64,000 nucleotides of DNA from Terriglobia bacterium (GTDB taxonomy: Bacteria > Acidobacteriota > Terriglobia > Terriglobales > Acidobacteriaceae), in contig JAIQGF010000013.1 of the NCBI GenBank assembly GCA_020072845.1, positions 1 to 64,000 on the forward strand, in the 5' to 3' direction. Under the pieces are notes generated by a model that ran no database searches, was not told the origin of the DNA, and was given only the letters and a program-made list of their open reading frames with translations. Shown here piece after piece: positions 10,970 through 63,412 of the stretch. The translations under genes were made by a program, and so were the position numbers. Position 1 is the stretch's first letter. Each line of letters begins with the position of its first letter.

Positions 10970-10978
10970 GTGTTGAGG

Positions 10979-11073
10979 AGTACCGAGTACCTAGTACCGA
11001 GTACCGAGTACCGAGCGTGGTACTCGTAATGCGGCACTCGGTACTAGGTACTCAGTACTCAGTACTCGGTACT
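10979..11073. repeat. Inverted pair of period-7 repeats (gagtacc phrase)
   Basis: Left arm 10979-11016 has five units of taccgag/tacctag; right arm 11034-11073 carries the complement (ctcggta, ctaggta, ctcagta). The arms can fold into a long imperfect hairpin spanning the whole gap between the Asd-like gene and lptE. The same phrase recurs at 40031-40063. Confidence 0.9.
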
Positions 11074-11074
11074 T

Positions 11075-12169
11075 CTACTGCAACTTCCCTTTCGGCATGG
11101 CGGCCGCCATTTGCTGGGCGGCGTCAATGGCGTTCAATGCCAGCACGCGCAGGTTGTCGGCGGCGGCCCAGATCCAGAAGCCGGTCTCGCGCTGGGCATC
11201 GGCGCGGATCCACACCATCATGTCCTCCGACCCGGCGGCGGCAACGTTGCTGGGCGACTCCTCGGAGCCGCGGGTGAGTTCTACGTGCTCGCCGGCGATG
11301 GCCTGCGAAAAATCGCCGATCGAATGTGCCTGCTCCAACTCAATGTAGAGCGAAAAGACGTGTCCATGAAAGATCGGCGCCTGCACCAGCATCAGCGAAG
11401 GCACCGGCACATCGGCGTGCGGCACGGACCCCGGCTGCGGAACTTGTCCGGTAATTTGGCGGTAGTGGCTGAGGATGCGGCGCTCGGCGCTTTCCAGCGT
11501 GGGCGAGGAATTCTCGCCGTAACGCGCCAGGACATTGAAGGCGACCTGCGCGTCGAAAACCGCCTTGGGCATTTCCTGGAAGGAGAGCAGGTTCACAGTC
11601 TGCTCGTGAAGTTCGTCCATGCCGGCGCGGCCGTGTTCGGAGGCGGGCTCGAAGACGGTGGCAACGGCGGAGCGCAGGTTGGCGACCTTCTGCGCGCGAG
11701 CGATCAGCAGCGCCAGCACAACCGCGGCGGGATGCGCCGTGACCACGGGCGCGGGCTCGAGTTCCGGTATTTGCGAGTGGCGCAGCTCGCGTTCCAGCCA
11801 CGGGGAGCGGACGCGGGCGCCGGGAGCGTCTTCCAGCGCGTGCGAGAGGTCCACGATCAGGCTTCCGGCCTGCTGCGCCATGCGCCAGTGTTTGCGGGTG
11901 AAATCCGGCTGCGAGGCAAAGAAGGTAAAGTCCACGTGCTCGAAGTTTTCCGCGCGCACGCTCTGCACGAACGTCACTTCCTCGCCGACGGGCTCGAGCT
12001 GGCCGAGGGATTCGTCGTCGTCGAGCAGCTTGATGTCCACCGCGGGAAAGGCAGTCTCGGGCAGCACCTCGGCGAGTTCCTTGCCCTTCAGGGTGCCGGC
12101 GCCGACGATGGCGACGCGGTAGAGACCGTTCTCCGAGCCCGATCGGCCGGGTTGGTGAGCGCGGTTCAT
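11075..12169 (-). CDS. Aspartate-semialdehyde dehydrogenase-like protein without catalytic cysteine (Usg-like)
   Basis: 364 residues with an Asd fold: an N-terminal Rossmann motif (YRVAIVGAGTLKGKELAEVL, residues 17-36), the dimerisation middle part and the C-terminal signature (WIWAAADNLRVLALNAIDAA). In true Asd the active-site Cys sits in an NCST motif after the first domain; here the aligned stretch reads TAHPAAVVLALL (about 144-155) with no cysteine. It is therefore unlikely to be a working dehydrogenase and resembles the E. coli Usg type of inactive paralogue. Overlaps pssA by ATGA, so it is co-transcribed with phospholipid genes. Role unknown. Confidence 0.75.
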   Translation of the reverse strand: MNRAHQPGRSGSENGLYRVAIVGAGTLKGKELAEVLPETAFPAVDIKLLDDDESLGQLEPVGEEVTFVQSVRAENFEHVDFTFFASQPDFTRKHWRMAQQAGSLIVDLSHALEDAPGARVRSPWLERELRHSQIPELEPAPVVTAHPAAVVLALLIARAQKVANLRSAVATVFEPASEHGRAGMDELHEQTVNLLSFQEMPKAVFDAQVAFNVLARYGENSSPTLESAERRILSHYRQITGQVPQPGSVPHADVPVPSLMLVQAPIFHGHVFSLYIELEQAHSIGDFSQAIAGEHVELTRGSEESPSNVAAAGSEDMMVWIRADAQRETGFWIWAAADNLRVLALNAIDAAQQMAAAMPKGKLQ

Positions 12170-14359: not shown

Positions 14360-14809
14360 TTACTGATGGCTACCGATGACCCTGCGGTACAGGACCGCGT
14401 CTTCGTCGGGGTACTGGTAGTAGTTGCGGCGGAGTCCCGTCGCGGCGAAGCCGTACTTGGCGTAGAGAGCGCGCGCGGCTGCATTCGAGGCGCGCACCTC
14501 CAGGAAAACGCTTTCGCCGCCCTGCTGCTTCACCACGTCGAGGAAGTGTTCGAGCAGAGCGGAGGCGAAGCCGCGCCGCTGCGCACCGGGAGCGACCGCA
14601 ATGTTTTCCAGCTCCCATTCCGGGCCGATTTGATTCGCAATCAGGAAGCCCTGCACAGTGTCGTCTTGGATCACGAGCGCGAGGCGGCGCGGATCGCCGG
14701 CGAAAATGCGGTCGTATTCGCTTTCCTTCCAGTGCGCGGCGGTTGGGGCCTGCGCTTCAATCCGGCGCATGGCGGGAACGTCGGCGGAGGTGGCGGGACG
14801 GATGTGCAA
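14360..14809 (-). CDS. rimI: Ribosomal protein alanine N-acetyltransferase-like GNAT protein
   Basis: 149 residues with a full GNAT fold: MHIRPATSADVPAMRRIE start, the acetyl-CoA loop VAPGAQRRGFASALL (Q/RxxGxA type) and the C-terminal VRASNAAARALYAKYGF signature typical of RimI. RimI acetylates the N-terminus of bS18. It sits directly after tsaB, the usual tsaB-rimI pairing. The start is TTG, and AAGAG from the adjacent repeat is the only Shine-Dalgarno-like sequence. Confidence 0.87.
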   Translation of the reverse strand: MHIRPATSADVPAMRRIEAQAPTAAHWKESEYDRIFAGDPRRLALVIQDDTVQGFLIANQIGPEWELENIAVAPGAQRRGFASALLEHFLDVVKQQGGESVFLEVRASNAAARALYAKYGFAATGLRRNYYQYPDEDAVLYRRVIGSHQ

Positions 14810-14890
14810 GCTCTTAGCTCTTAGCTCTTGGCTTGTTCGGCTCCGCGCTTTGCATCTGACTAAGAGCTAAGAGCTAAAAGCTAAGAGCTT
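14810..14890. repeat. Inverted pair of period-7 repeats (agctctt phrase)
   Basis: Left arm: three or four units of ctcttag starting at 14810. Right arm at 14860-14890: ctaagag and variants, the exact complement. Separated by about 25 nt. It fills the whole gap between tsaB and rimI and overlaps the tsaB 3' end. Confidence 0.9.
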
Positions 14891-15597
14891 CCTTTCGAAA
14901 AGATTTCCGCGTCGGAGCGGCGGATGTAGTTGGCGTCCAGCGCTTCGGGCAAAATGACCTGGCCGGCGGCAATCTTGAGCGCCCCGATGCGGGCAATCAC
15001 GTCGCTTTGCGGACGGGCCACAACCTGCACCGGTTGTCCGCGGGCGAGCAGCAGGGAGGCGACGGATTCGTCGGGAGTGATGACCGGCATCTGCGGCGCC
15101 AGTTGCGCCTCGGCGGCGAATTCCTGCACCGGCATCAGCACCTCCCGCAGGAGCTGCGGTACCGCGTCCTCGCGGACCACGTATTCGCCGACGTAGACTT
15201 CGCCGCGCATGGCGTCGAGAGCGGCGATGACCTGGGCTTTGAAGGGTTGATCGGCAGTTCCGGGCTCGGAGAGCCGGGCCACATCTCTGGCGCCCGCCCA
15301 TGCCAGCGCCTCCAGCAGCGAGACGGCGGCGATGGGCTTGTGCGTGATTTCCGCCAGCGCCTTAATCGTGGAGAGCCCGACACGCAGACCGGTAAACGAA
15401 CCGGGACCGGTCGCGGCGGCGTAGGCGTCAATGGCACGTTTACCCAGCTTGTGGCGCGCCAGCAGCGCCGAAATCTGCGGCATCAGTTGCTCGGAATAGG
15501 TGCGGCCGGCGAGGGGAACGAGTTCGAGCACCTTCCCATCCCCAAGCAGCGAAATGCTGCCGTTCGAGCCAGCCGTATCTATGGCAAGAATCAACAT
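14881..15597 (-). CDS. tsaB: tRNA threonylcarbamoyladenosine biosynthesis protein TsaB
   Basis: 238 residues of the ASKHA-fold TsaB family: MLILAIDTAGSNGSISLL start, then RTYSEQLMPQISALL and the diagnostic AAATGPGSFTGLRVGLSTIKAL at about 60-82. TsaB is the non-catalytic scaffold for TsaD in t6A37 tRNA modification; tsaC lies elsewhere in this window (22202-22867). The last residues (SKGSS) run into the repeat at 14810-14890, which may have altered the C-terminus. Confidence 0.93.
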   Translation of the reverse strand: MLILAIDTAGSNGSISLLGDGKVLELVPLAGRTYSEQLMPQISALLARHKLGKRAIDAYAAATGPGSFTGLRVGLSTIKALAEITHKPIAAVSLLEALAWAGARDVARLSEPGTADQPFKAQVIAALDAMRGEVYVGEYVVREDAVPQLLREVLMPVQEFAAEAQLAPQMPVITPDESVASLLLARGQPVQVVARPQSDVIARIGALKIAAGQVILPEALDANYIRRSDAEIFSKGSS

Positions 15598-15599
15598 CG

Positions 15600-15698
15600 A
15601 TCAGGTGATCGGGTGATCCGGTGATCGGGTGATCCGGTGATCGGAACTCATGGTTTGAGATCACCCGATCACCAGATCGCCCGATCACCCGATGATCA
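15600..15698. repeat. Inverted pair of period-8 repeats (ggtgatcg phrase)
   Basis: Left arm 15600-15643 repeats ggtgatcg/ggtgatcc five times; right arm 15659-15698 is the complement (gatcaccc, gatcacca, gatcgccc). Occupies the gap between the epimerase gene and tsaB. The same phrase recurs at 25746-25782 and 63964-63992. Confidence 0.92.
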
Positions 15699-16108: not shown

Positions 16109-16207
16109 GCAGTCTCCAGTCGTCAGTCTTCAGTCGTCAGGCGCGAGGCCCAAGGTATAAGCCAGAACGCGTCAGTGCTGAAGACTGACGACTGACGCCT
16201 GAAGACG
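16109..16207. repeat. Inverted pair of period-7 repeats (agtcgtc/agtcttc phrase)
   Basis: Left arm (cagtctc, cagtcgt, cagtctt, cagtcgt) from 16109 to 16140; right arm 16173-16207 is the complement (ctgaaga, ctgacga, ctgacgc). Fills the meaB-mce gap. Same phrase as 5195-5240. Confidence 0.9.
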
Positions 16208-16208
16208 T

Positions 16209-17162
16209 TTAGCGCCCGAGCTTGCTGACAATCTCTTCCACCAGCGAGTACGGGTCACGCTTGTGTTCGGCGATTTCGGCGGCGTAGCGGGAGATCGCTC
16301 CATCTCCCATTTCGTCGCGCAGAACGCGCTCCAGCAGCGACTCGCGCAGCATTTCGACCAGGCGCTCCTGCCAGTTCTGCACCTTTTTCTGCAGGCCGAG
16401 ATTGTGCGTCCGCAGGAAATCTTCGTAGGCGGCGATGGCTTTCGCCAGTTCCGGGACGCCCTGGCCGTCGCTGGCGACGGTCTTGACGATCGGCGGCGTC
16501 CAGCCATCGGAGCGCGTGGAGAGCGACTGCATGGCACGGATCTCGCGCTCCACGCGCTCCGCCCCCTCGCGGTCGCTCTTGTTGATGACAAACACGTCCG
16601 CAATTTCCATGATGCCGGCCTTGATGGTCTGCACGTCGTCGCCCATGCCGGGCACGAGAATGACGACGGTGATCTCGGCCAGGCGCACGATGTCCACCTC
16701 GTCCTGTCCGACGCCGACGGTCTCGATCAACACCAGGTCGCGCCCGCTGGCATCGAGCACGGCGGCGACGTCGGAGGAGGTGCCGGCCAGGCCGCCGAGC
16801 GAGCCGCGCGTGGCCATGCTGCGGATGTAGATGCCGGGGTCGGCGTAGTGCGAGCCCATGCGGATGCGGTCGCCCAAAATCGCGCCGCCGGTGTAGGGGC
16901 TGGTAGGGTCAACGGCGATGATGCCGACGGTCTTGTTTTGTTTGCGGTATTCCTTGGCGAGCTGGTCAACCAAGGTGCTCTTGCCTGCTCCAGGAGCGCC
17001 GGTCAGGCCGATGATGCGCGCGTGCCCGGTGTGCGGGAACAGCGCCTTGAGCAAATCGGTGGATTCGGGCGCACGGTTCTCGACCGTGGTGATGGCGCGC
17101 GCCAGGGCGCGGGGATCGCCGGAGCGAATGCGTGAAACCCAGTTGTCGTTGTCGGTGGCCAC
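16209..17162 (-). CDS. meaB: Methylmalonyl-CoA mutase-associated GTPase MeaB
   Basis: 317-residue G3E-family GTPase (ArgK/MeaB) that gates cobalamin loading and protects methylmalonyl-CoA mutase. Visible motifs: Walker A GAPGAGKST at about 55-63, DPTSPYTGGAILGDRIRM, the switch ETVGVGQDEVD and NKSD for guanine recognition. Start is GTG (MATDNDNW), placed at the edge of a repeat with no clear Shine-Dalgarno. Upstream is an acyl-CoA dehydrogenase, downstream the epimerase. Confidence 0.94.
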   Translation of the reverse strand: MATDNDNWVSRIRSGDPRALARAITTVENRAPESTDLLKALFPHTGHARIIGLTGAPGAGKSTLVDQLAKEYRKQNKTVGIIAVDPTSPYTGGAILGDRIRMGSHYADPGIYIRSMATRGSLGGLAGTSSDVAAVLDASGRDLVLIETVGVGQDEVDIVRLAEITVVILVPGMGDDVQTIKAGIMEIADVFVINKSDREGAERVEREIRAMQSLSTRSDGWTPPIVKTVASDGQGVPELAKAIAAYEDFLRTHNLGLQKKVQNWQERLVEMLRESLLERVLRDEMGDGAISRYAAEIAEHKRDPYSLVEEIVSKLGR

Positions 17163-17226
17163 TGTCGTTGGTCGTTTGTCGTTGGTCGTTGGCGCGAACG
17201 ACTAACAACCAACGACGACCGACTAG
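17163..17226. repeat. Inverted pair of period-7 repeats (gtcgttg phrase)
   Basis: Left arm repeats gtcgttg/gtcgttt four times from 17163; right arm 17198-17226 has the complement (cgactaa, caaccaa, cgacgac). It fills the acyl-CoA dehydrogenase-meaB gap and provides the dehydrogenase stop codon region. Same phrase as 3451-3487 and 60025-60092. Confidence 0.9.
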
Positions 17227-18365
17227 TCTTTCAGAAGCTGGCGGGCAATCACAAGCCTTTGAATTTCGCTCGTCCCTTCCCCGATGGTACACAGCTTAAC
17301 GTCGCGATAGAACTTTTCCGCGGGGTAATCCTTGATGAAGCCGTAGCCGCCATGGATCTGGACGCCCTCGTTGGCGCAGCGCACCGCAACCTCGCTGGTG
17401 TAAAGCTTGGCCATGGAGGATTCCTGGGTGGACTTCATGCCCTTGTCCTTCATGTCGGCGGCGCGCATGGTGAGCAGGCGGGCAGCGTCAATTTCGGTGG
17501 CCATGTCGGCGAGCTTCCATTGAATGGCCTGGAATTCGCAGATTGCTTTGCCGAACTGTTCACGCTCCTTGGAGTACTTCAGCGCCGCCTCGAACGCGCC
17601 CTGTGCCATGCCGAGTCCGAGGGCGGCGATGGAGATGCGCCCGCCGTCGAGAATCCGCATGGCGTCAATGAAGCCGCCGCCTTCCTTGCCGAGGAGGTTT
17701 TCGGCAGGAATGCAGCTGTCCTCGAAGATAAGTTCGGCGGTGTCGCTGGCGCGCAAGCCAAGCTTGTTCTCTTTCTTGCCCGGCCGGAACCCCTGGGTGC
17801 CCTTCTCGACGATGAACGCGGACAGTCCGTGGGTATGCGCCGCCTTGTCGGTGACGGCGAGAACGACCGCGACATCGGCATAGTGGCCGTTGGTGATAAA
17901 CGTTTTGGTGCCGTTCAGCACCCAGCAATTGCCGCGACGAACCGCCGTCATGCGGGCGCTGCCGGCATCCGATCCGCTGCCCGGTTCGGTAAGTCCCCAA
18001 GCGCCGATGTGTTCGCCGGTGGCGAGCTTGGGGACGTACTTGCGCTTCTGCTCCTCGCTGCCGGCAACAAAAATATGGTTGGTGCAAAGCGAGGTGTGGG
18101 CGGCCACAATGATGCCGATGGACCCGTCCACGCGAGAGAGTTCCTCGATGGCGAGCACGTACTCGATATAACCCATGCCGGCGCCGCCGTATTCCGGCGG
18201 AAAGATGGCGCCCATCAGGCCGAGGCGGCCCAGTTCCTTGACCGTCTCCAGCGGGAAGCGCGATTCCTCGTCCCACTCCATGACGTGCGGACGGATTTCG
18301 CGCTCGGCAAACTCGCGCACGCTCTTGCGGAGTTGCAGTTGCTCATCGTTGAGTTGAAAATCCAA
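17223..18365 (-). CDS. Acyl-CoA dehydrogenase
   Basis: A 380-residue FAD enzyme of fatty-acid or branched-chain acyl-CoA oxidation. [20 protein letters not shown] start, the [11 protein letters not shown] flavin-binding motif, the central [12 protein letters not shown], and the C-terminal [21 protein letters not shown] and [15 protein letters not shown] motifs; the catalytic glutamate is expected within the latter (IGEGTSE region precedes it in short-chain types). I chose TTG at 18365 because GGAGG lies 8 nt upstream and the conserved DFQL follows; a longer frame to 18410 is possible. Substrate chain length is not decidable. Confidence 0.93.
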
Positions 18366-18513: not shown

Positions 18514-18604
18514 AGTGATTTAGCGATTTAGTGATTTGTGATTACTGGAAAGTCGACGAACTACGCGATGAGCTCCACCAATCACTGAATCGCTAAATCA
18601 CAAA
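18514..18604. repeat. Inverted pair of period-8 repeats (gtgattta phrase)
   Basis: Left arm gtgattta/gcgattta/gtgatttg from 18514; right arm 18579-18604 (atcactga, atcgctaa, atcacaaa) is its complement. Lies between the acyl-CoA dehydrogenase and the beta-propeller lipoprotein genes. Confidence 0.88.
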
Positions 18605-19920: not shown

Positions 19921-20037
19921 CAGGCTTCAGGCTCCAGGCGTCAGGCTTCAGGCGGCAATGTTTTTGGGTCTGCGGCGGAACTCGACGGTCCCCGGGATCC
20001 GACGCCTGAAGCCTGACGCCTGAAGCCTCAAGCCTGT
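19921..20037. repeat. Inverted pair of period-7 repeats (aggcttc phrase)
   Basis: Left arm 19921-19955 (aggcttc, aggctcc, aggcgtc, aggcttc); right arm 20001-20037 (gcctgaa, gcctgac, gcctgaa, gcctcaa) is the complement. It lies in the divergent gap between the lipoprotein and DUF92 genes. The same phrase recurs at 32034-32086. Confidence 0.9.
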
Positions 20038-23014: not shown

Positions 23015-23869
23015 ATGGCCGAATACGATCGCCTGCGCCGCGTATCCAGCCGCCAGAATTCGCTGGTCAAGGAACTCCGGCGCGCTTTTCACGATGGCGA
23101 ACCGGCCGCGGACGGATCCATCGCCATCGAGAGCGTCCGCACCATCGAGGAGGCAATCCGCAGCGGGCTGCGCTTTCGCGCCGTGTTCTTCGCCGAATCC
23201 GCGCAGCCCCGCGCCGGCCGCCTGTTGCCGCAATTCTCGGCCAATGTCGAAATCCTGCTCCTCCCCGACGACGTGTTCCAGAGCGTGGTTGCCACGGAAA
23301 CGCCGCAGGGCGTGGCGGCGCTGGTGCGCCTGAAGGTCCACAAGCTCGATGAGCTGCTGGCCGCGCCCGGGCCGCTGATCGTGGCCGCTGCCGGCGTGCA
23401 GGACCCCGGAAACCTGGGCACGATCATCCGTTCCGCCGAAGCATTTGGCGCCGCCGGCTTGCTGGTGGGAGCGGGGACGGTGTCTCCCTACAATCCCAAG
23501 GTCGTGCGCGCGTCGGCGGGTTCGCTGTTTCGCTTGCCAGTGGTGGGAGTGGAATTTCCGGCGGTGCTGGCCGCGCTCCGCGATCGCGGCCTGAAGTTGC
23601 TGGCCACCTCGTCGCACAAGGGCACGGCGCTGGAGGAAGCGGATCTTACCGGTGGCGTGGTGGTGCTGATCGGCAACGAGGGCGCCGGTTTGCCGAAGGA
23701 GATCATGCGGCAGGTGGACGGGCAGGTATCGATTCCGCACGCGCCGGGCGTCGAATCTCTGAATGCCGGCATGGCGGCGTCCATCGTGCTGTACGAAGCT
23801 TCGCGACAGAGGAGGGCGCCAGTTCACCACCGAGACACCGAGGCCACCGAGAAACACCGAGAAGAATAA
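23015..23869 (+). CDS. SpoU/TrmH-family RNA 2'-O-methyltransferase
   Basis: 284 residues: an N-terminal substrate-binding part ([28 protein letters not shown]) and a C-terminal SPOUT knot with the three family motifs [20 protein letters not shown] (about 130-149), [12 protein letters not shown] (about 226-237) and [19 protein letters not shown] (about 248-266). It should methylate a ribose in 23S rRNA or tRNA (RlmB/TrmH-like; target not decidable). The last 17 residues, [17 protein letters not shown], are encoded by the left arm of the repeat beside the GxxExxY gene and are not part of the fold. Confidence 0.9.
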
Positions 23870-24352
23870 TTTCGGAGGGTTGGGGACATATGAGCACAGG
23901 AGCCATGGCAGTGAGATCGGCAAGGTCGGGCGAGCGATTTTTTCGCGATCAGACCGACCCAGTTATTGGAGCAGCCATCGAAGTGCACCGGGTGCTTGGG
24001 CCGGGACTGCTCGAAGAAACTTACGAAAGCTGCCTCTGCCACGAGTTACATCTTCGTGATGTCGCTTTTCAACGCCAGGTTCACCTGTCCATTGTTTACA
24101 AAGGTATTCGCCTTGCTTCGGCCTATCGCATCGATCTGGTCGTGAATGACTTCGTAATCGTTGAACTCAAGGCAGTCGAACAGATCCTGCCATTGCACGA
24201 AGCGCAGCTCTTGACGTATATGCGCCACACCGGAAAACGAGTAGGGCTTCTGATCAACTTCAATGTTCCGATACTGAAGAACGGCATTCGCCGTCGCGTT
24301 CTTTGATTTCTCGGTGCGCCTCGGTGGCCTCGGTGACTCGGTGGTGAAACAG
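23822..24352. mobile_element. GxxExxY cassette bounded by inverted caccgag repeats
   Basis: Left arm 23822-23865 (caccgag/acaccgag/gccaccgag units) and right arm 24309-24349 (ctcggtg units) are complementary and enclose the GxxExxY gene. The first 31 nt of the left arm are identical to the start of the gene-free hairpin at 29198-29284. The insert lies between two conserved genes and the left arm has been read into the upstream gene's 3' end. This is my interpretation as a mobile or once-mobile unit; no transposase is present. Confidence 0.6.
23890..24306 (+). CDS. GxxExxY family protein (PD-(D/E)XK-like)
   Basis: 138 residues with the signature GLLEETY (GxxExxY) after an N-terminal helix ([14 protein letters not shown]), then the acid-lysine core [21 protein letters not shown] that looks like a PD-(D/E)XK nuclease site, and [19 protein letters not shown] near the end. 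Members of this family commonly occur in several copies per genome; the biological role is not established. An ATG at 23905 with AGGAG just upstream is an alternative start. Lower GC than the neighbours and enclosed by inverted repeats. Confidence 0.88.
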
Positions 24353-24357
24353 TAATC

Positions 24358-28045: not shown

Positions 28046-29156
28046 TTATTTCGCCGCCTGCTGCTCCTGCCGCCGCATCATCAGGTACGCCCGGATGAAG
28101 GGCTGCAAATCGCCATCGATAACGCGGTCCACGTCGCCCATCTCCATGCGCGTGCGCAGGTCCTTCACCATGCGATAGGGCGCCAGCACGTAGGAGCGAA
28201 TTTGCGAGCCGAAATCGATGTCGAGCTTCGAGTCCTCTATCTTCTTCGACGCGGCGCGCTTTTTCTCCAGCTCAAATTCGTACAGCCGCGAGCGCAGCAT
28301 GCTCATGGCACGGTCGCGGTTCTTGTGCTGCGAGCGCTCGTTCTGGCAGCTCACCACAATCCCGGTCGGGAGGTGCGTGATGCGCACCGCTGAATCCGTG
28401 GTGTTGACGTGCTGCCCGCCCTTGCCGCCGGAACGATAAGTGTCCACCCGCAGGTCTTCCGGCTTGATGTCCACCTGGATGGACTCGTCGATTTCCGGCG
28501 AGACGAACACGCTGGCGAACGAGGTGTGGCGCCGCTTGGCCTGGTCGAAGGGCGACATGCGCACCAGCCGGTGCACGCCGATTTCGCTGGTCAGCAGCCC
28601 GTAGGCGTAATCGCCGTTCACGGTAAACGTCGCCGACTTGATTCCCGCCTCTTCACCGGGCTGATAATCGTTGAGCACGGTCTGGAAGCCTTGGCGCTCC
28701 GCCCAGCGCATGTACATGCGCAGCAGCATCTCCGCCCAATCCTGCGATTCGGTTCCGCCTGCGCCCGGATGAATGGTGACGATGGCGTTGCGCGCGTCGT
28801 TCTCGCCGGAGAGCAGCGTCTCCGTCTCGAGCTTCTCGACGCGCTCGCGCAAGGAGGCGATCTCGCGCCGCAGGTCGGCCGACACGTTTTCGCCCTCGCG
28901 CCCCAGCTCGAAATAGGCGTCGAGGTCGCTGATGCGCCGCGCCAGCTCGGCCTCGGTGGACAGCATGTCCTCCAGGCGCTTGCGCTCGCGCATTACGGTC
29001 TGCGATTTTGCGGGATTCGACCAGAGGTTCGGGTCGGAGGCTTCTTTTTCCACCCGCTGCATCTGCTCGCGCAGCCGGGGTACGTCAAAGATACTCCCGC
29101 AGCTCGCGCACCTTGTCGCGCAACGGGAGATATTCCTGTTCCAGTTCTTCCAGCAT
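28046..29156 (-). CDS. prfB: Peptide chain release factor 2 with programmed +1 frameshift
   Basis: Terminates at UGA and UAA. Frame 1 runs from ATG 29156 for 23 codons (MLEELEQEYLPLRDKVREL...) to an in-frame TGA at 29087-29085; skipping T29087 gives GAC and continues to 28046, for about 369 residues in total. The body contains the SPF codon-reading tripeptide (RMSPFDQAKRR) and the catalytic GGQ (SGGKGGQHVNTT). A shorter reading from the internal ATG at 29062 would lose the conserved N-terminal helix. The next gene starts 2 nt after the stop; lnt is upstream, with an 87-bp hairpin element between them. Confidence 0.95.
29081..29100 (-). promoter_or_regulatory. prfB autoregulatory frameshift site
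   Basis: Minus-strand GGGAGTATCTTTGAC: a Shine-Dalgarno-like GGGAG three bases before CTT TGA C, almost the same as the E. coli site. Low RF2 lets ribosomes slip +1 on CUU U and make full-length RF2. Confidence 0.93.
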
Positions 29157-29197
29157 ACGACAACCTTGTCACAACTTCAGGGCAGCCGCAACGACTT

Positions 29198-29284
29198 GTT
29201 CACCACCGAGACACCGAGGCCACCGAGAGTTATTTTTTCGCAATTCTCGGTGAGTCTCGGTGATCTCGGTGGCTCGGTGATGAA
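29198..29284. repeat. Gene-free inverted caccgag hairpin element
   Basis: 87 bp: left arm 29198-29228 identical over 31 nt to the left arm of the GxxExxY cassette, a spacer of about 18 nt, and right arm 29246-29284 of ctcggtg units. Lies between lnt and prfB on the same transcript. It has no coding capacity and looks like an empty version of the cassette at 23822-24352. Confidence 0.88.
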
Positions 29285-29292
29285 TCGGACCA

Positions 29293-30957
29293 TCAAGACT
29301 GCAGGGTCGCCCGGCGGACGGCAACTCGCAAAACGAGCACTACCAAAGAAATTATCGCACACAGCCACACGAACCAGTTCCCATGACGGGTGTAAAACGT
29401 GGTGCCGCTCACCACGCTGTAGGGCACGTCCAGCGAGGTGCGCACGTTGCGCGGGGCCTGCGCCACCACGCGTCCAAACGGATCAATCACCACCGTGAGG
29501 CCGGTGTCGGTGGCGCGCACCAGCCAGCGATGGTTCTCGATGGCGCGCATGCGCGCCTGGTTCAGGTGCTGTACCGGCGCGGCGGTCTGGCCGAACCAGG
29601 CGTCGTCGGAGATGTTGACGAAAACCTGCGCCCCGTTGTTGGCGAACTCGCGAATCTCCGCCGGGTACACCGCCTCGTAGCAGATGAACACCCCCATCTG
29701 GTAGTTCCCCAGCGCCAGCGGCCGGCGCGATTCACCGGGAAGGAAATCGCCGACCTCGCGCGTGAGCTTGCCGGCAAAAGTCAGCAGCCGTTTATACGGA
29801 ACGTACTCGCCAAACGGGACGAGGTGGATCTTGTCGTAGCGCGCGATCCAGTCGCCATTGGGCGCGACGACCGCCGCCGAATTGTAGAGTTGCGACGCCG
29901 GCTGCCCGGGGTTGGACACGCCCAGGCTGCCCACCACCATGGTCGCATGCGCGCGCCGCGCGACGTCGCTGACTGCGGCGCGGAATTCCGGACTTGTTGT
30001 GAAGAACGGCGCCGGCGACTCCGGCCACACCACCAGGTCCGGAGCCGGTTCGGTGGGGCCCAGCTCGCCCCCACGCGCGACGCTCAAATCGCTCAGCTCA
30101 CGCAAGGTGGATTGAAAGTACTCGGGCGTCCACTGGTCGGCATTCAGGATGGGGATATTCGCCTGCACCAGGCGCGCGGTGCGGTCTGCGGCCAGCCTCG
30201 GCGGTTCGACCAGTTCGCCCGCTTGCAGCAGCCCGGCGACAACGATGGCAGCCAGCAGCACCATCTTCCGCCGTTTCGAGTCCACCAGGAACGCCGCCGC
30301 GAATGCGGTGTTCACCAGCACAATCTCGAACGTCAGGCCGTAAACCCCGGTCGCGGTCGCGATCCGCGTCAGGGGAATGTTGTTCACCAGCACCGTGCCG
30401 AGCGGGTTCCAGGGGAAATCGAAAGGAAAGCCGCGCACGATCTCCAGCGGCACCCAGAGGAACGGCGCCAGGAACAGGGCTTTTTCGCGCAGCAGACCGT
30501 TGGCAAGAATCGCCAGCAGCAAACCGAACCCGCCCCAGATCACGCCCAGCGCAAAACAGAACAACACCAGCAAGCCCAAAGACGTCGGGCCATTCAGCCC
30601 GCCGTAGATGTGCATGACGTGGTAAATCCAATACGTGGTCCCGAATGACCACATGACTCCGCCGACGTAGGCGAGCAGAAACCCCTGCCCGGCGCTGACC
30701 GGTTGCGCGTCGCCTCCGCCCACCGGCACGCGCCCGCGCAGGATTGCGACCAACAACGGCGCCAGCGCCACCCAGCACAGAAACGTCAGACCGGGGAGCG
30801 GGTAGATCAAGCTCTGCAAGACGCCGGAGAGCACCGCCAGTATCCAGGCGCCGGCGCTCAGGCGCGAGCGCCCGCCGAGTTCGCCGCGCGGCGCCAGGAA
30901 AAGCCGTGCGCCCGCGCCGAGTCCCACCCGGCGCGCAGGTTTGCGGTGGTTATCCAT
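29293..30957 (-). CDS. lnt: Apolipoprotein N-acyltransferase
   Basis: Adds the third acyl chain to the N-terminal cysteine of lipoproteins in the inner membrane. 554 residues: about seven membrane helices (residues 40-225, last one near the C-terminus at 525-545) and a periplasmic nitrilase domain with the Glu-Lys-Cys triad: E in VVWPESPAPFF, K in RYDKIHLVPFGEYVP and C in GVFICYEAVYP. The predicted lipoproteins in this window (LptE-like and beta-propeller) are potential substrates. The N-terminal about 35 residues are basic and poorly conserved. Confidence 0.94.
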   Translation of the reverse strand: MDNHRKPARRVGLGAGARLFLAPRGELGGRSRLSAGAWILAVLSGVLQSLIYPLPGLTFLCWVALAPLLVAILRGRVPVGGGDAQPVSAGQGFLLAYVGGVMWSFGTTYWIYHVMHIYGGLNGPTSLGLLVLFCFALGVIWGGFGLLLAILANGLLREKALFLAPFLWVPLEIVRGFPFDFPWNPLGTVLVNNIPLTRIATATGVYGLTFEIVLVNTAFAAAFLVDSKRRKMVLLAAIVVAGLLQAGELVEPPRLAADRTARLVQANIPILNADQWTPEYFQSTLRELSDLSVARGGELGPTEPAPDLVVWPESPAPFFTTSPEFRAAVSDVARRAHATMVVGSLGVSNPGQPASQLYNSAAVVAPNGDWIARYDKIHLVPFGEYVPYKRLLTFAGKLTREVGDFLPGESRRPLALGNYQMGVFICYEAVYPAEIREFANNGAQVFVNISDDAWFGQTAAPVQHLNQARMRAIENHRWLVRATDTGLTVVIDPFGRVVAQAPRNVRTSLDVPYSVVSGTTFYTRHGNWFVWLCAIISLVVLVLRVAVRRATLQS

Positions 30958-34391: not shown

Positions 34392-34464
34392 GACTGCGGA
34401 ATTGCGGAACTGCAGAATTGCGGAATTGAAATTCCGCAGTTCGGCAATTCGGCAATTTCGGCAG
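34392..34464. repeat. Inverted pair of period-8 repeats (tgcggaat phrase)
   Basis: Left arm actgcgga/attgcgga/actgcaga/attgcgga; right arm attccgca/gttcggca/attcggca from about 34430. The two arms abut around ttgaaatt. Located in the divergent gap upstream of the zinc-ribbon gene. Confidence 0.88.
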
Positions 34465-34486
34465 TAACCGATAAACTCTTTCTTCG

Positions 34487-45586: not shown

Positions 45587-45593
45587 ACAGGTC

Positions 45594-45664
45594 TAGCCAC
45601 AGAGGACACCGAGGAAAACCAAGGTCAAAACGCCTTCCTTGATGTTCCTGACCTTTGTGGCTAG
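45594..45664. repeat. Inverted repeat after uvrB (tagccacagagg...)
   Basis: Left arm tagccacagaggacaccgag (from 45594) and right arm ending cctttgtggcta (45664) are complementary over about 12 nt at the tips and loosely inside. It lies in the convergent gap between uvrB and the MCP gene and might terminate both. Confidence 0.75.
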
Positions 45665-60552: not shown

Positions 60553-61022
60553 GACTGGAACTGATCCAGCCGTTCATCAACGCCGCCGACGCGGTGCTGG
60601 CGCAAAGCCTGGCGTGCAACACGCGCGTTTCCAACGTCACCATGGAACCGGAGGTTTATCGCACGCGTGGCCTGGCCGCGATCGTGACCATGAAGGGAGA
60701 CATCGAGGGGCGAATCGTCTTCGATCTCGACCGCAGGATTGCCCTGCGTGTCGCCTCGGCGATGGCCGGCAGCGAACTGTCGGATTCCGACGGCTTCGTC
60801 AGTGAAACCATCTGCGAGCTGGCCAACCAGGTGATCGGCAACGCCATCACCAGCCTCAACGATCAGGGCTTCCACTTCCGCATCCAGCCGCCCGAAATCC
60901 ACACCGCCGAACACGGTCTCGGCAGCAGCGAGGATACCGAGGCGCTGGTCATGTGCTTCGATACGCCGAGCGGCAGCGTGTTCATGAACATCGCGCTGCG
61001 CTTCCCGAAGTTTGTCGCGTAA
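60549..61022 (+). CDS. cheX: CheX-type CheY-P phosphatase
   Basis: 157 residues of the CheC/CheX/FliY family: MRLELIQPFINAADAVLAQ start as in CheX, a single phosphatase helix with the E-xx-N pair E90/N93 (ETICELANQVIGNA) and VFMNIALRFP at the end. It would dephosphorylate CheY-P encoded just before it. No CheD or CheZ is present, so this is the likely signal-termination enzyme. Confidence 0.9.
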   Translation: MRLELIQPFINAADAVLAQSLACNTRVSNVTMEPEVYRTRGLAAIVTMKGDIEGRIVFDLDRRIALRVASAMAGSELSDSDGFVSETICELANQVIGNAITSLNDQGFHFRIQPPEIHTAEHGLGSSEDTEALVMCFDTPSGSVFMNIALRFPKFVA

Positions 61023-61029
61023 GAACGAG

Positions 61030-61138
61030 GCCACGGATTTCCGCGGATCGGCACGGATAAAACAAAATCCGTGTGCATCCGCGCAAATCTGTGGCCCGTT
61101 TTTCCTCTGCGATCCTCTGCGCACTCTGTGGTTAAGAA
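61030..61138. repeat. Inverted repeat (ccacggattt...aaatctgtggc) and ctctgcg run
   Basis: Left arm gccacggatttccgcggatc and right arm gcgcaaatctgtggc around 61030-61094 can pair; a cctctgcgatcctctgcgc run follows. Located after the che operon in the convergent gap, so it may act as a bidirectional terminator. Confidence 0.75.
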
Positions 61139-61613: not shown

Positions 61614-61706
61614 CTAATTTGTAATTTGTAATTGGTAATTTGCAGTGTCAAGGAGCTGCTGCCGGCGGAAGTTCAAATTGCAAATTACAAATTACCAATT
61701 ACAAAT
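61614..61706. repeat. Inverted pair of period-7 repeats (tttgtaa phrase)
   Basis: Left arm tttgtaa/tttgtaa/ttggtaa/tttgca (61615-61643); right arm 61674-61706 (caaattg, caaatta, caaatta, ccaatta, caaat) is its complement. AT-rich, unlike the surrounding DNA. Fills the gap between threonine aldolase and SRPBCC genes. Confidence 0.92.
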
Positions 61707-63199: not shown

Positions 63200-63412
63200 G
63201 GGCCGCCCCAGCGGGGCGGATGAAAATAGCCCAGCACTTCAGTGCTGGGAAGAAGCACGAAGTTTGTCCGCAAGTCCCGTAGGGACGACTGAATGGAACT
63301 GGACAGCACTCCTGCGGATGAACTCAATCGTCCCTACGGGACTCCGATCGTTGTGGCAACCAGACCCGGCGCTGAAGCGCCGGGCTATTTTCATCCGCCG
63401 CTGCGCGGCTCG
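63200..63412. repeat. Nested palindromic element (about 210 bp)
   Basis: Left arm 63203-63291 and right arm 63326-63412 are complementary in three blocks: the outer ggcggatgaaaatagccc, the small hairpin blocks cagcacttcagtgctggg versus cccggcgctgaagcgccggg, and the inner agtcccgtagggacga. No coding capacity. It has the look of a MITE or REP-type element. Confidence 0.85.

Follow-up and report, generated by a model that had tools for sequence, protein, structure and literature searches.

The gap between lnt and prfB in this Terriglobia genome holds a short hairpin that contains no gene and whose arms resemble those around a GxxExxY gene at 23822. This raises the question whether the hairpin serves prfB, in whose leader it lies, or is one copy of an element found at many places. 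The window, the whole 64,000-nt stretch of DNA that was analyzed, contains the following features:

23823..23862, plus strand: left arm of the gene-bearing cassette; TTCAC and four CACCGAG, linkers A, GC and AAA
23890..24306, plus strand: GxxExxY gene in the hairpin loop (TIGR04256; PF13366, PD-(D/E)XK nuclease superfamily)
24310..24348, plus strand: right arm of the cassette; four CTCGGTG, linkers CGC, GC and A, then GTGAA
28046..29156, minus strand: prfB; start codon at 29154-29156, programmed frameshift motif CTTTGAC at 29084-29090
29199..29227, plus strand: left arm of the gene-less hairpin; TTCAC and three CACCGAG, linkers A and GC, fourth heptamer lost
29228..29245, no strand assigned: loop of the gene-less hairpin, 18 nt
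29246..29284, plus strand: right arm of the gene-less hairpin; four CTCGGTG, linkers AGT, AT and G, then ATGAA
29293..30957, minus strand: lnt (apolipoprotein N-acyltransferase), stop codon at the hairpin side
45593..45664, no strand assigned: related gene-less hairpin, CACAGAG/CACCGAG words
61021..61103, no strand assigned: related gene-less hairpin, CRCGGAT words with 3-3 linkers; this word type is also present around some GxxExxY genes

The left arm of the lnt-prfB hairpin starts with TTCAC (29199-29203), followed by CACCGAG at 29204, 29212 and 29221; in the right arm CTCGGTG starts at 29246, 29256, 29265 and 29273 and is followed by ATGAA (29280-29284). With three heptamers on the left and four on the right the hairpin is an imperfect copy, as the fourth heptamer is gone from the left arm. 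The initial annotation had described an arm-spacer-arm unit without a gene, which we can confirm, but its extent is 86 bp (29199-29284) instead of 87 bp (29198-29284). The hairpin lies 8 bp from the stop codon of lnt and 42 bp from the start codon of prfB. RNA folding of the two strands yields -47.2 and -52.5 kcal/mol (z -7.5 and -7.8), a stability matched by none of 200 shuffles, and an Rfam search of region 29100-29400 gave no match to a known RNA family.

The cassette at 23822-24353 is a CACCGAG hairpin with a GxxExxY gene in its loop. The identity of the gene product was confirmed by profile matches to TIGR04256 (E 8.9e-44) and PF13366 (E 2.6e-43), and the arms show linkers of 1, 2 and 3 nt (1-2-3), like the gene-less copies of the same genome. 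An open reading frame upstream of the cassette extends into the left arm (23828-23869), which supplies its last codons and stop. The lnt-prfB hairpin was reported to share a 31-nt left arm with the cassette. The identity is real, but 26 of the 31 nucleotides are family consensus (TTCAC and three heptamers), leaving only five variable positions (a flanking G, the linkers A and GC, and one more A). Linkers A and GC also recur outside this pair, for example at C8:180202, and between the right arms five of the six linker bases differ. The identity is therefore no proof of copying between the two, and the derivation of the lnt-prfB copy from the neighbouring cassette is unsupported.

Both belong to a larger family, with many intergenic sites. 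In the 4.23-Mb genome the 16-mer CACCGAGACACCGAGG has 95 matches with at most two mismatches, compared to 3 for the reversed control, and exact matches to the spaced pattern number 66 (control, 0). We counted 40 CACCGAG clusters; as the cassette accounts for two of these with its two arms, there are about 39 loci, against two GxxExxY genes; 33 of the clusters are two-armed, one of these with another word. The left arm consists of TTCAC and four CACCGAG heptamers separated by linkers of one, two and three bases, and the right arm is its mirror image. These linker lengths are exact in 62 arms, 28 on the left (of 36) and 34 on the right (of 37). Heptamer cores are near-invariant across copies, linkers and loops are near random, and conservation ends abruptly five bases beyond the outermost heptamer, at the TTCAC/GTGAA ends (base -5; 73 arms). 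Apart from one local duplicate pair, copies do not share linkers beyond chance (two pairs with at least 9 of 12 identical linker bases, null mean 1.72). Such a lack of shared linkers is odd for a copied element: either the copies are old and have kept their cores, or the cores are rewritten. The former conflicts with the turnover that we observed between sister species.

This turnover is evident at the lnt-prfB gap itself. Among 30 genomes of the family, our own included, inspection by eye identified the CACCGAG hairpin only in our genome, with a remnant in G001, where two CACCGAG units are followed by a hairpin of GGTCTCT words. The gap contains a GATTTGG-type hairpin in G002, an AGCT-type hairpin in G004 and a single array of the word AACTGGC in G006; no such array was seen by eye in the gap of the remaining genomes among the 30. 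In G001 (C217, L073) the GGTCTCT hairpin directly abuts the two CACCGAG units, an arrangement that would result if the rest of the first element had been replaced by a second one. The initial annotation had placed the hairpin in the leader of prfB, whose expression is autoregulated. The intergenic position and the stability of the fold agree with a regulatory leader or terminator of lnt-prfB. However, the hairpin is absent or different in sister species with 94-97% identical prfB, the TTTGAC frameshift motif lies inside the gene and is present in all 30 genomes, and Rfam yielded no match here, so that this explanation is very improbable and a fixed regulator of prfB is rejected on the basis of the survey of the gap. 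The hairpin is thus neither a lone sequence nor one that is continuously conserved in the lnt-prfB gaps of relatives.

The site of the cassette is polymorphic as well. Our genome and G001 (about 95% identity) carry the gene-bearing allele, G002 carries a gene-less CACCGAG hairpin at the same position, and G003 has a 9-bp gap without insertion. The proposed parallel with pairs of autonomous elements and MITEs is supported in this respect, as full and empty forms coexist in the genome and also occur as alleles of one site. The loop of the gene-less G002 allele includes an 11-bp match, resembling a ribosome-binding site, to that of the gene, which is not significant (34 of 500 shuffles equally good). 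Where hairpins persist at orthologous positions, mutations are found in cores as well as in linkers, suggesting that no strong constraint acts on individual copies. Among 41 comparable gaps of G001-G003, a strict score identifies hairpins in 8, and 7 of these are unlike our own element; site 1993, with other-word hairpins in both relatives, falls outside this count because of the anchor rule. It would be too strong to say that hairpins of other words occupy the majority of orthologous gaps. A target-site duplication, which the initial annotation had proposed to define, does not rise above the control: direct repeats at the ends average 2.0 in 30 elements, compared to 2.25 for swapped controls. 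Matches to the CACCGAG pattern number 18 in G001, 11 in G002 and 3 in G003, and G002 has retained CACCGAG hairpins although its only GxxExxY match belongs to another scheme.

To place the cassette in a wider context, we collected GxxExxY genes from other genomes. The family is present in 47 of 150 genomes of the order, and 23 of 29 loci (29 from the search and two of our own, minus two at contig ends) are flanked by inverted arrays according to our score; the other six lack arms. At least 80 loci were found in named genome contigs. The matches listed derive from Acidobacteria, Planctomycetes, Chloroflexi, Verrucomicrobia, Proteobacteria, Bacteroidetes, Cyanobacteria and other phyla, and also from a Methanosarcinales archaeon. 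Among the matches listed, 66 of 78 loci reach the array score; in 56, each arm contains at least two CRCNRAG words. The score is also reached frequently by randomly cross-paired arms (181 of 800), since the words are common to different loci. Spread on plasmids or phages is rejected, as GxxExxY matches occur in 8 of 72,556 plasmid records and in none of 50,697 phage records.

The linker schemes vary from locus to locus (1-1, 1-2, 2-2, 2-3 and others), yet the two arms of a locus mirror each other in 81 of the 96 loci in which both could be parsed (109 were given, 13 remaining unparsed); shuffling gave a mean of 27.2 and at most 41 in 5000 shuffles. In a further 40 loci, 34 were parsed, with agreement in 21 and disagreement in 13, and several of the rest are of the CRCGGAT word type. 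On a tree of 70 GxxExxY proteins the scheme changes 23 times, compared to 33.3 ± 1.9 expected, and none of 500 shuffles required as few changes. Four spaced patterns were counted in 21 genomes and reach up to hundreds of occurrences, for example 345 arms of the 2-2 pattern in G147; reversed controls, per strand, gave 0 or 1 for three of the patterns and up to 8 for 1-1. In 19 genomes, gene-less arms favour the schemes of which the same genome has a gene copy (share 0.584 compared to 0.429 ± 0.051, p 0.0011). Arms belonging to gene-bearing copies, a few in each genome, are part of these counts; our own genome was entered under 1-2 as well as 2-3, since both patterns fit a 1-2-3 arm; for G120 and G146, some schemes were read by eye where arms were parsed only in part; and unresolved copies, 3-3 copies, G001 and G124 were excluded. 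An earlier version with one gene per genome (p 0.011) is superseded by this test, which uses more gene copies. We conclude that gene and hairpin belong together, as the scheme follows the GxxExxY tree and gene-less arms favour the schemes of gene copies in the same genome. The link between scheme and tree could, however, also reflect joint travel of gene and arms without recognition. In G147 an identical 24-mer is found in 9 of 20 matches to the 1-2 pattern, and the common identical arms of this and other genomes are what plain copying predicts.

An alignment of 40 GxxExxY proteins shows invariant residues E42, D82, E92 and K94, among others (numbering of the 138-aa product). The predicted structure (pLDDT 92) best matches SSO0001 (Z 10.1, rmsd 3.3, 98 residues), which we take to be a Cas4 nuclease. 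Other nucleases, archaeal Holliday-junction resolvases among them, match less clearly (Z about 6 to 7); according to the warning of the tool itself, values under 8 may mean little. By sequence, no relatives of solved structure were found up to E 1, and Foldseek with the model returned no match at E 0.001 or better. Based on profile match, motif residues and model, the GxxExxY protein is of the PD-(D/E)XK nuclease fold, and nuclease activity is predicted.

What could have distributed the hairpins can be considered against several alternatives. The arms might be arrays of binding sites for a host DNA-binding protein, with the nuclease gene as a hitchhiker or later invader. A protein that reads heptamers would account for near-invariant cores between random linkers and loops, and paired sites of the CACGGAG type have previously been described as predicted global regulator sites, according to the part of that report available (PMC2700814). 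Against this, relatives do not retain the sites at orthologous positions, as the lnt-prfB gap of 30 genomes illustrates, orthologous cores are mutated, the scheme agrees with the GxxExxY tree, and gene-less schemes match the gene copies of the same genome. We consider this reading unlikely. At least equally doubtful is a REP-like origin, in which a Y1 transposase (RAYT or IS200/605-type) moves the hairpins and GxxExxY is cargo or helper. Y1 transposases of these types insert without target-site duplication, in agreement with the ends of the CACCGAG hairpins; PF01797 matches are present in our genome (9), G001 (9), G002 (12) and G003 (1), and the CACCGAG count of G001-G003 is lowest where Y1 is lowest, in a comparison of three genomes only. 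Yet the gene in the loop is GxxExxY and not Y1, at loci that were found by a GxxExxY query, and the foot of the hairpin has no tag like the GTAG/CGTC described for REP elements (available part of PMC3733652), conservation stopping at TTCAC.

A further possibility is that the hairpins act as RNA, the transcript being folded and processed in a manner comparable to that of 23S rRNA intervening sequences, which RNase III cuts, with the mirrored internal loops tuning the processing. The folds are very stable in the four sequences tested (z -6.6 to -8.6) and the sizes of the internal loops are mirrored. In our own family, moreover, the linkers avoid Watson-Crick pairing: 22 of 138 linker bases pair across the arms, compared to 44.6 ± 5.0 after right arms had been exchanged among loci (none of 20000 shuffles as low; 23 hairpins, 24 minus one local duplicate). 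However, the same test gives a mere trend in nine hairpins of G001 and G002 (8 of 54 compared to 13.6 ± 3.6, p 0.075), and gene-bearing elements elsewhere show no avoidance (0.56 paired compared to 0.45), so that avoidance of pairing holds for our own family and is rejected as a general rule. Base-pair covariation is likewise weak as a proof of pairing (p about 0.035 at two of three positions), the agreement being mostly due to homogeneity of the words. Overall, an RNA function appears quite improbable.

The hairpins were also compared with known systems. MITEs are short, gene-less, multi-copy sequences whose arms are common to a gene-bearing element of the same genome. The CACCGAG hairpins resemble them in these respects and in the insertion polymorphism at the orthologous site 23822; they differ in the lack of target-site duplication, in arms made of 7-nt words with graded spacers, and in having no known transposase. 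RAYT is the transposase associated with REP elements, and our genome does encode Y1 transposases (the nine PF01797 matches). As described in the accessible part of one report, REP elements are likewise short extragenic palindromes of high copy number (PMC3733652); the CACCGAG hairpins have longer, word-built arms without the GTAG/CGTC tag and a loop gene of nuclease fold instead of Y1. The closest description that we compared concerns Geobacter metallireducens, where paired inverted arrays of three classes (classes 1-3) were reported in 2009 as predicted global regulator sites (PMC2700814). In the part of that report available, these are paired inverted arrays of tandem 7-9-nt repeats at variable inter-array distance, and the class 2 consensus TCTCCGTS is the reverse complement of SACGGAGA, a word of the same type as CACGGAG. 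By description only, the CACCGAG hairpins thus share the inverted-pair layout and the word type with class 2 sites. Unlike our elements, the Geobacter sites were read as sites for a regulator or for IHF/HU, and the same part of the report mentions no linker scheme, nuclease gene in the loop or comparison of orthologous alleles (PMC2700814).

Heptamer repeats also occur in two other known systems. In the 23S rRNA intervening sequence of Coxiella, heptamer repeats (GACAGAT) precede an S23 ORF, and a small gene (S23/four-helix-bundle ORF) lies in a long hairpin, as far as the accessible text describes it (PMC4990558). The lnt-prfB element is not in 23S rRNA; the present element has a GxxExxY gene, is located between protein genes and uses CRCNRAG words. 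TAACTGA repeats of Beggiatoaceae are also abundant intergenic heptamers, but nearly all are direct, unpaired and of one word in the description available (PMC4679880).

Arrays of other words are also frequent. Our genome has 10 four-helix-bundle (TIGR02436) genes, and in this bacterial family 31 of 35 such genes lie between inverted heptamer arrays that reach the score, compared to 47 of 1190 cross-pairs. The word of these arrays (L033-L042, L161-L189) differs from locus to locus. By eye, most words of the 5' arm seem to combine YYRG (TCAG, TTAG, TCGG, TTGG) with a word-specific triplet, a pattern that does not fit the window words GAGTACC and GGAATTGC. Hairpins of other words in the window include 10976-11076, 14808-14890, 15596-15696, 16112-16206, 17161-17227, 18515-18601, 19921-20036, 34393-34465 and 61617-61706, with 7-8-nt words such as GGTACTC, AGCTCTT, GTGATCGG, AGTCGTC and GTCGTTG. 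A strict detector found 10 hairpins in the window, one of which (16508-16561) looks coding, and none in five shuffles, and 24 of the 35 gaps of at least 60 bp bear a word array (arrays listed by eye). Hairpins and arrays of this general kind thus make up much of the intergenic DNA of the window. Two inverted copies of the Acido-Lenti-1 RNA (RF01687) of Rfam, at 63204-63249 and 63365-63410, form one long inverted repeat.

Taken together, we favour, with a probability of about one half, that the hairpin at 29199-29284 is a non-autonomous copy of a mobile element and has partly decayed, and that GxxExxY mobilises hairpins of matching scheme through recognition of the arms and nicking or resection. 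Mobility is suggested by one site at which gene-bearing and gene-less alleles occur beside an allele without the element, and by the occurrence of the lnt-prfB hairpin in our own genome only, apart from one remnant. The hairpin is probably processed by GxxExxY, an enzymatic role that we infer from fold and association. In such a mechanism GxxExxY would recognize the arms, probably extruded as a single-strand hairpin or a cruciform, and would nick or resect them; hairpins of matching scheme, both in cis and in trans, would then be mobilised or copied with no target-site duplication. The data require no function of its own for the lnt-prfB copy, which is tolerated owing to its intergenic position.

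Beyond this locus, we tentatively propose a widespread and so far unrecognised class of elements, a generalization that is possible but doubtful as a whole. Its members would consist of 7-bp helices with mirrored internal loops, in which the loop sizes (1-1, 1-2, 2-2, 2-3, 1-2-3 and others) serve as an address, each read by its own GxxExxY lineage, whereas S23 four-helix-bundle proteins would serve a parallel class of heptamers. In our own genus the cores would be rewritten at new sites while the linkers stay free and unpaired, so that the element would propagate as a structure and not as a sequence. Hairpins linked to GxxExxY extend across many bacterial phyla and to at least one archaeon and seem undescribed as one system; we found no literature linking GxxExxY to hairpins by title or abstract, in a search with most subscription journals and preprints outside its scope. 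The proposed class ties together three things that have been viewed separately: paired tandem-repeat sites, the common GxxExxY protein family, and S23/four-helix-bundle genes. Should the nuclease act on hairpins that have its own scheme, these would constitute a simple, structure-addressed mobile system in many phyla.
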